From: Cyanobium sp. NIES-981
GTDB taxonomy: Bacteria > Cyanobacteriota > Cyanobacteriia > PCC-6307 > Cyanobiaceae
Assembly (NCBI GenBank): GCA_945877595.1
Contig: CAMDVN010000003.1
Coordinates: 1 to 64,000, forward strand
Length of the DNA stretch: 64,000 bases
Direction of reading: 5' to 3'
Every line of letters starts with the position of its first letter. Position 1 is the first letter of the stretch. The position numbers and the translations under genes were made by a program. Of this stretch, positions 3,572-3,643 are shown piece after piece. The notes under the pieces were generated by a model that was given only the letters and a program-made list of their open reading frames with translations, was not told the DNA's origin and ran no database searches.

Positions 3572-3643
3572 AGCCGGTGACTGGATTTGAACCTGCGACC
3601 TACTGATTACGAATCAGTTGCTCTACCACTGAGCTACACCGGC
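3572..3643 (-). tRNA. tRNA-Thr (anticodon CGU)
   Basis: The minus strand folds into a full cloverleaf: acceptor GCCGGTG/CACCGGC, D stem GCTC/GAGC, anticodon arm ACTGA-TTCGTAA-TCAGT with anticodon CGU, and T arm GCAGG-TTCAAAT-CCAGT. CCA is not encoded. The T stem has an A-A mismatch at 51-63, where the 3'-half copy at 247-283 has a normal C-G pair. The gene's 3' end faces the gene-poor patch. Confidence 0.95.

Follow-up and report, generated by a model that had tools for sequence, protein, structure and literature searches.

A tRNA-Thr(CGU) gene and a displaced 3′ half with different T-stem pairs at an insertion site in Cyanobium

In related cyanobacteria, the tycheposons of picocyanobacteria are small tRNA-associated elements with tyrosine recombinases. 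The insertion described here differs from them in being a remnant that holds an amine oxidase gene and a fragment of an insertion sequence (IS), with no intact mobility gene seen. More generally, islands that target tRNA genes restore the 3′ half of the gene and leave the old half displaced, a behavior treated as established in the sections of the Islander study drawn on here (PMC4383910), and tRNA fragments are described as integration scars in the corresponding part of another report (PMC9897764). According to the same Islander sections, islands with tyrosine integrases are flanked by an intact tRNA and a same-strand 3′ fragment (PMC4383910). A likewise arranged pair is found in the window, the 64,000-nucleotide stretch of Cyanobium sp. 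NIES-981 (contig CAMDVN010000003.1) that was analyzed. Unlike the Islander islands, the insert in the window is only ~3.3 kb long, decayed and without an intact integrase, and a compensated T-stem pair sets its gene apart from its fragment, so that a swap of halves would show as a change of allele. A literature search found no paper joining tRNA-Thr, a genomic island, an integrase and psbA in Synechococcus. Following 3′-half alleles through a family by means of discordant pairs of gene and half may be a new approach.

The tRNA gene, its half-copy and the insert

The intact tRNA-Thr(CGU) gene occupies positions 3572-3643 on the minus strand and was identified by ARAGORN and by Rfam RF00005 (69.7 bits). 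It folds into a cloverleaf with a CGU anticodon and passes the tRNA model, as a functional tRNA does. Its T-arm reads GCAGG-TTCAAAT-CCAGT, giving G49-U65, C50-G64 and an unpaired A51 and A63; the single non-standard pair that Infernal flags in the gene lies within this stem. A second copy of the 3′ half, a probable far-end attachment-site remnant, lies at 247-283 on the same strand and is 35/37 identical to the gene, the two together bounding the insert as in tRNA-targeted islands. This half-copy runs from tRNA position 38, at the 3′ edge of the anticodon loop, to one base beyond the tRNA, and over the 37 positions compared it is mismatched at 51 and 63 alone. In its own T-arm, GCCGG-TTCAAAT-CCGGT, C51 pairs with G63 and the G49-U65 wobble is kept. 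The contrast first noticed in the preliminary description, A51/A63 in the intact gene and C51-G63 in the half, is confirmed. The next-best matches in the genome (71-76% identity) are other tRNAs or less. With a minimum free energy of -23.8 kcal/mol for the A51/A63 gene versus -28.4 kcal/mol for the gene of a C-G relative (G010), the mismatch is predicted to lower stability, yet the gene scores as a normal tRNA.

The contig starts at window position 1 with the last codons of psbA (1-99, plus strand, recognized by tblastn to the psbA ends of relatives), the usual far neighbor of the site, followed by its terminator. A short flank between this terminator and the half-copy (180-246) resembles the flank of the C-G tRNA of genome G121, as judged from CTCAGGGAA and a shuffle test. 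On the other side, the half-copy's truncated edge is followed after 28 bp by the remnant of a DDE-transposase IS (312-894, plus strand; Pfam PF01609 on 623-859, E 3.2e-6), which is similar in DNA and frame to an IS in genome G135. The insert further contains a flavin amine oxidase gene (1140-2642, plus strand; PF01593, E 2.2e-58) and ~900 bp without a recognized gene. The amine oxidase is 71% identical to its counterpart in Synechococcus lacustris and 74% to that in Synechococcus sp. CS-1328; it was rejected as a guide to the donor, with no tRNA in the examined stretches of the two relatives found. Upstream of the tRNA lie a DUF3493 gene (3687-3938, plus strand), a hypothetical gene (3888-4736, minus strand) and infB (4791-8186, minus strand).

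Pfam and PHROGs searches detected no integrase in the insert, and the three PF00589 matches of the source genome, a draft of 2.57 Mb in 143 contigs with a completeness of 88.6%, are all on other contigs. A short open reading frame (ORF) 27 nt behind the tRNA (3257-3544, minus strand) is a possible remnant of an integrase N-terminus, to judge by weak matches. It shares 14 of 35 residues with the frame behind the G121 tRNA (E 0.005 with composition correction off), and an HMM of that protein family places it, weakly (E 0.11), at the top of 12 frames; neither Pfam nor PHROGs returned a match for it. The family in question comprises proteins of ~400-450 residues, with which a truncated frame at the corresponding site of genome G029 groups by its N-terminus. 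Relatives of the G029 frame occur in 33/101 family genomes, and a tRNA is present in 11 of the 20 loci fetched. Phage_integrase (PF00589) matched three of seven full-length members weakly (E 1.8e-4, 3.3e-4 and 0.002), all three matches falling short of the curated cut-off; the remaining four and the G029 frame gave no PF00589 match, the sole weak match of the latter being Salt_tol_Pase (E 0.017). The label integrase is therefore given to this protein family here as a putative one, with modest confidence.

Elsewhere in the same genome, contig C56 (L180) carries a 533-aa frame at 4245-5846 with a Phage_integrase match (E 3.6e-14), ~130 bp behind a tRNA-Thr(UGU) gene at 4040-4111, and tRNA-targeting elements have thus been active in the lineage. 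A viral or phage source was considered and set aside: neither the A-A nor the C-G half had an exact match in viral_contigs (0 for each), and the G121 frame is without a phage match.

The site and its alleles in relatives

The surroundings of the gene are conserved on one side and variable on the other. Both infB and DUF3493 adjoin the tRNA in 20/20 relatives' loci, the hypothetical gene was detected in 15 of them, and psbA lies behind the tRNA, converging, in nine. Across 80 loci, the distance from tRNA to psbA, where psbA is visible, ranges from 98 bp (G031) to 5.4 kb (G080). It is 98-236 bp in the compact relatives G031, G056, G057 and G087, versus 3476 bp in the window; an arrangement that these four keep compact, and that varies widely in length in other relatives, is split by the insert. 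The half-copy lies ~150 bp from the psbA end, a compact-site distance, and so roughly at the place expected for the end of the tRNA. In G004, a congener with the A-A gene, 1.1 kb separates psbA from the tRNA, and a search for a half-copy found none. In genus-mates that share the 3′ half exactly, the first 60 nt downstream of the gene show an identity of 0.45-0.52 at infB identities of 0.80-0.94 (chance, 0.40) and of 0.69 above 0.94; identity in the 60 nt upstream climbs with that of infB, starting at 0.56-0.58 and reaching 0.91. Since the downstream stretch stays near chance and the upstream stretch tracks infB, the DNA behind the tRNA turns over fast. The stretch behind tRNA-Thr(CGU), from the infB side to psbA, is an insertion hotspot.

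A short sequence, TTCACGAC, directly follows the tRNA in six genomes from three genera (L010, L050, L063, L064, L065 and L115), always with the A-A half, and it also follows the half-copy of genome G002, again with an A-A half. It is possibly an attachment-site extension carried by elements.

The preliminary description had regarded the two adenines as unusual and as a mark of the island, a view that the survey overturns. All five other genomes of the genus that were examined are A-A, and the identical 72-nt gene is present in 41/399 other family genomes. Among 117 selected loci, the window included, 63 are A/A, 48 C/G and 6 A/C, frequencies that are not unbiased, as the loci were the author's selection, made in part to include odd alleles; outside it stand G106 (C-G, on a short contig) and those of 29 A-A loci that were not refetched with longer flanks. 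A51/A63 is a common, tolerated allele of the family, neither drift nor specific to this island. Its recurrence in dozens of genomes rules out a lineage defect or an assembly error. At the class level a looser pattern matched 32/87 genomes, and in the 30 matches from outside the family position 51, the only one of the two that was read, is G or C and in no case A, an indication that A51 originated inside the family. C51-G63 in related strains would have strengthened the case for an imported half; the five congeners are instead A-A, among them G004, in which no half-copy was found, and this is the very pattern that had been named in advance as refuting an imported half.

Two further observations concern the gene in the wider family. 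Near-complete genomes of genera g5, g9 and g35 are among those without a match to tRNA-Thr(CGU) at E 1e-12, and the gene may have been lost or have diverged strongly there. In G199 and G226 (L127 and L128), the working tRNA-Thr(CGU) has ATCTCCGGC; set against the constant 5′ half, this sequence leaves U6/U67 without pairing, a further sign of halves that did not coevolve.

Across the 117 loci, the 5′ half is constant but for one D-loop position, plus one inserted base in two loci, one of them the G040 gene, and the 3′ half occurs in 17 alleles. Same-genus pairs with identical 5′ halves (n=273) differ in the 3′ half by 0 positions in 219 cases, 1 in 3, 2 in 6, 3 in none and 4-7 in 45; for pairs with different 5′ halves (n=203), the counts are 70 with 0 differences, 11 with 1-3 and 122 with 4-7. 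The gap between 0-2 and 4-7 differences shows that halves often change in blocks. In trees built from infB alone by a quick search, the 117 loci require 28 changes in the 3′ half and nearly as many (25) in the 5′ half. On a tree of 80 loci, the 51:63 state takes 14 changes, fewer than the shuffled mean of 27.8, and is thus partly inherited by descent; well-supported branches force 6 changes for A/A and 5 for C/G.

Ordinary recombination also appears to be at work. G167 and G191 are 97.7% identical in infB, and differ at 7/36 positions of the 3′ half, with an upstream 60-nt identity of 0.60. Among pairs at infB identities of 0.91-0.94, upstream 60-nt identity is 0.66 where the halves are switched (n=10) versus 0.81 where they are not (n=57). 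Because the upstream flanks are also less alike in switched pairs, recombination of the whole gene is suggested, and block switches were dropped as proof of pure 3′-half swaps. Integration and ordinary recombination probably both contribute to the block exchange. Nor does the infB tree fix the prior 51:63 state of the window, which is about as close in infB to the C-G genus g46 (0.873) as to the A-A genus g10 (0.874) or to its best congener (0.859). With 3′ halves switching in blocks and these proximities so similar, A-A in relatives cannot identify the newcomer half.

Displaced halves and the proposed direction of exchange

The 3′-half pattern was found in 110/201 family genomes by an exact-pattern search, which misses decayed copies, and it matched more than once in five: the window's own genome (G000), G002, G029, G135 and G141. 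The half has the T-stem of the gene in G002, G135 and G141, and is discordant with it in the window and in G029 (2/5). The loop sequence TTCGTAA is retained in the halves of G029, G135 and G141 and lost in the window and G002. Its retention in three of five half-copies places the crossover in the anticodon loop, by inference; in the window the point is not readable because the fragment has lost the loop sequence.

The closest parallel is G029, which has the same tRNA with infB upstream, a truncated integrase-like frame behind the tRNA (after 96 nt) and a discordant half 3.3 kb away. In its working gene (GTCGG/CCGAC, CATCGGC), the 3′ half meets the constant 5′ half with a G5-U68 wobble. The alleles are other than those of the window: the displaced half of G029 (GTCGG/CCGAT, CACCGGC) is the working allele in two genomes of genus g45, unlike the window half, which was found nowhere else. 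The pattern agrees with a model in which the 3′ half was imported, and this polarity is likely rather than certain because a third allele, AGCGG/CCGCT, is present in all three of the genus-mates of G029 that were sampled.

The other two genomes offer observations of their own. G135 (L147 and L160) has a half-copy with an identical 59-nt flank at two places, with psbA ~0.75 kb from each, the second psbA being broken near its end. A 266-aa recombinase-like frame (PF00589, E 1.3e-20) lies near the half-copy, as does one that is presumably deaminase-like (L160). In G141 (L079 and L161), the half-copy lies ~113 kb downstream of the intact tRNA, with a near-identical flank of ~60 nt in both, a spacing that reflects a very large island or a rearrangement.

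The 3.3 kb in the window are best explained, tentatively and with somewhat less than even confidence, as the remains of a tRNA-targeting element, the A-A half having been imported and the C-G fragment displaced by the last insertion. The element would recombine in the anticodon loop of tRNA-Thr(CGU) and bring its own 3′ half, rebuilding the gene while the resident half moved to the opposite end of the insert. On this account the C51-G63 sequence would have been part of the gene until the last insertion displaced it, and quite possibly a legacy of an older element; the A51/A63 half that the gene uses today would have come in with the last insertion, a standard family allele put into the gene. 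Import of A-A is favored because the shared block starts at the anticodon loop and three of five half-copies keep the loop, so that the sequence 3′ of the loop in the far copy should be that of the former resident. Two further points argue in the same direction, the precedent of G029 and the likeness of the fragment's flank to that of the G121 C-G gene. Counting against import are the absence of a complete integrase from the insert and the weakness of the ORF remnant, the clustering of 51:63 on the infB tree, and a discordance of half and gene in just 2/5 genomes.

A host that was always A-A needs fewer events, given that 5/5 congeners are A-A. Under this opposite polarity the element half would have been C51-G63, with a crossover 3′ of position 63, at the junction of T-stem and acceptor, and the element's T-stem left in the far fragment. 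Sites at that junction are nearly as common as anticodon sites in the part of the Islander work used here (1836 versus 2083 islands; PMC4383910), and the fragment is without loop sequence. A junction site, however, needs a shared tRNA end only, yet the shared block reaches back to position 38; in G029, G135 and G141 the halves run through the anticodon loop; and no mobile C-G source came to light, viral_contigs having yielded no exact match. The opposite polarity is, on balance, somewhat unlikely.

The flank of the fragment bears on its origin. CTCAGGGAA occurs at the same offset in three of 114 flanks of tRNAs and half-copies, namely those of the window fragment, G121 and G154, all of which are C51-G63. 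Shuffled sequences scored as well as the likeness to G121 in 0/200 cases, to G154 in 13/200 and to G002 in 63/200. In G121 the C-G tRNA is directly followed by an integrase-like frame; in G154 no such frame was recognized by eye behind the tRNA. A match to a C-G gene with an integrase-like frame behind it suggests an earlier role of the fragment as the tRNA end of a previous element. As G121 belongs to another genus, the same likeness would also suit a fragment foreign to the insert, one acquired from a C-G genome by homologous recombination, as part of the psbA 3′ flank or of some longer segment. The duplicated stretch of half-copy, flank and nearby psbA in G135 shows that such segments get copied, and upstream flanks change in close switched pairs. 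Such an origin is nevertheless distinctly improbable, the exact half being present in no other sampled family genome and the fragment sharing the strand of the gene and sitting where the insert is expected to end.

The T-stem of the fragment is itself informative. Its C50-G64/C51-G63 combination is two steps away from either main allele, and the exact C-G half, searched as a 28-mer, is absent from all 399 other family genomes sampled. Because the stem changed on both strands with pairing intact, the gene would have been functional when it changed, and the fragment seems, from its sequence, to keep an intermediate allele otherwise unseen. An intermediate of this kind would also be expected if C51-G63 had arisen from A-A in the lineage's own working gene, as a compensatory repair before the insertion that the incoming half then undid. 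The somewhat similar flank behind the A-A half of the congener G002 fits this account, but that likeness is within chance and the one to G121 is not, and the account is highly improbable. Later decay of a fragment displaced as A-A is scarcely credible. A displaced half is under no selection, but the chance that two random substitutions among 36 positions would hit 51:63 and give a Watson-Crick pair is (1/630) x (2/9) = 3.5e-4, or 7e-4 with G-U allowed, which makes decay a poor explanation, and the rest of the 37 positions are unchanged.

Import of the A-A half is held less firmly, and two of its rivals slightly more so, because of the changing upstream flanks and the third allele in the genus-mates of G029. 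The preliminary description, which had proposed tRNA integration with an imported 3′ half and taken the fragment for the ancestral one, was right in kind and wrong on A-A being unusual. The geometry is present and repeated in G029, but the direction is unproven. The fragment is probably the half displaced by the last insertion, though it may stem from an earlier element rather than from the ancestral host.

Implications for tRNA-Thr(CGU) and translation

The positions at which gene and fragment differ belong to the part of the tRNA that contacts EF-Tu. Affinity for EF-Tu is set by the pairs 49:65, 50:64 and 51:63, and the tRNA-Sec antideterminant against EF-Tu consists of three pairs, G49:U65 and C50:G64 among them, in the portion of the source relied on here (PMC11231383). 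Measured against that portion, the window tRNA shares both of these pairs, and its pair 7:66 is G-C, not the C-G of the antideterminant. Beside the A/A mismatch, they might make for weak EF-Tu binding. A broader possibility is that the A51/A63 half is a mobile allele, carried between genera by elements that repeatedly overwrite this half of the picocyanobacterial tRNA-Thr(CGU) gene, in which case parasites rather than the lineage would set the EF-Tu-contacting part; this is unlikely as matters stand, and the changing upstream flanks and the third allele beside G029 weigh against it too.

If the swap is true, tRNA-targeting elements go beyond restoring their target gene: half of it is rewritten, and the former half stays behind next to it. 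Working genes and the halves that they have shed would in that case form a record of which halves have moved. As the rewritten T-stem pairs set the affinity for EF-Tu, a mobile element could alter a host tRNA in translation.
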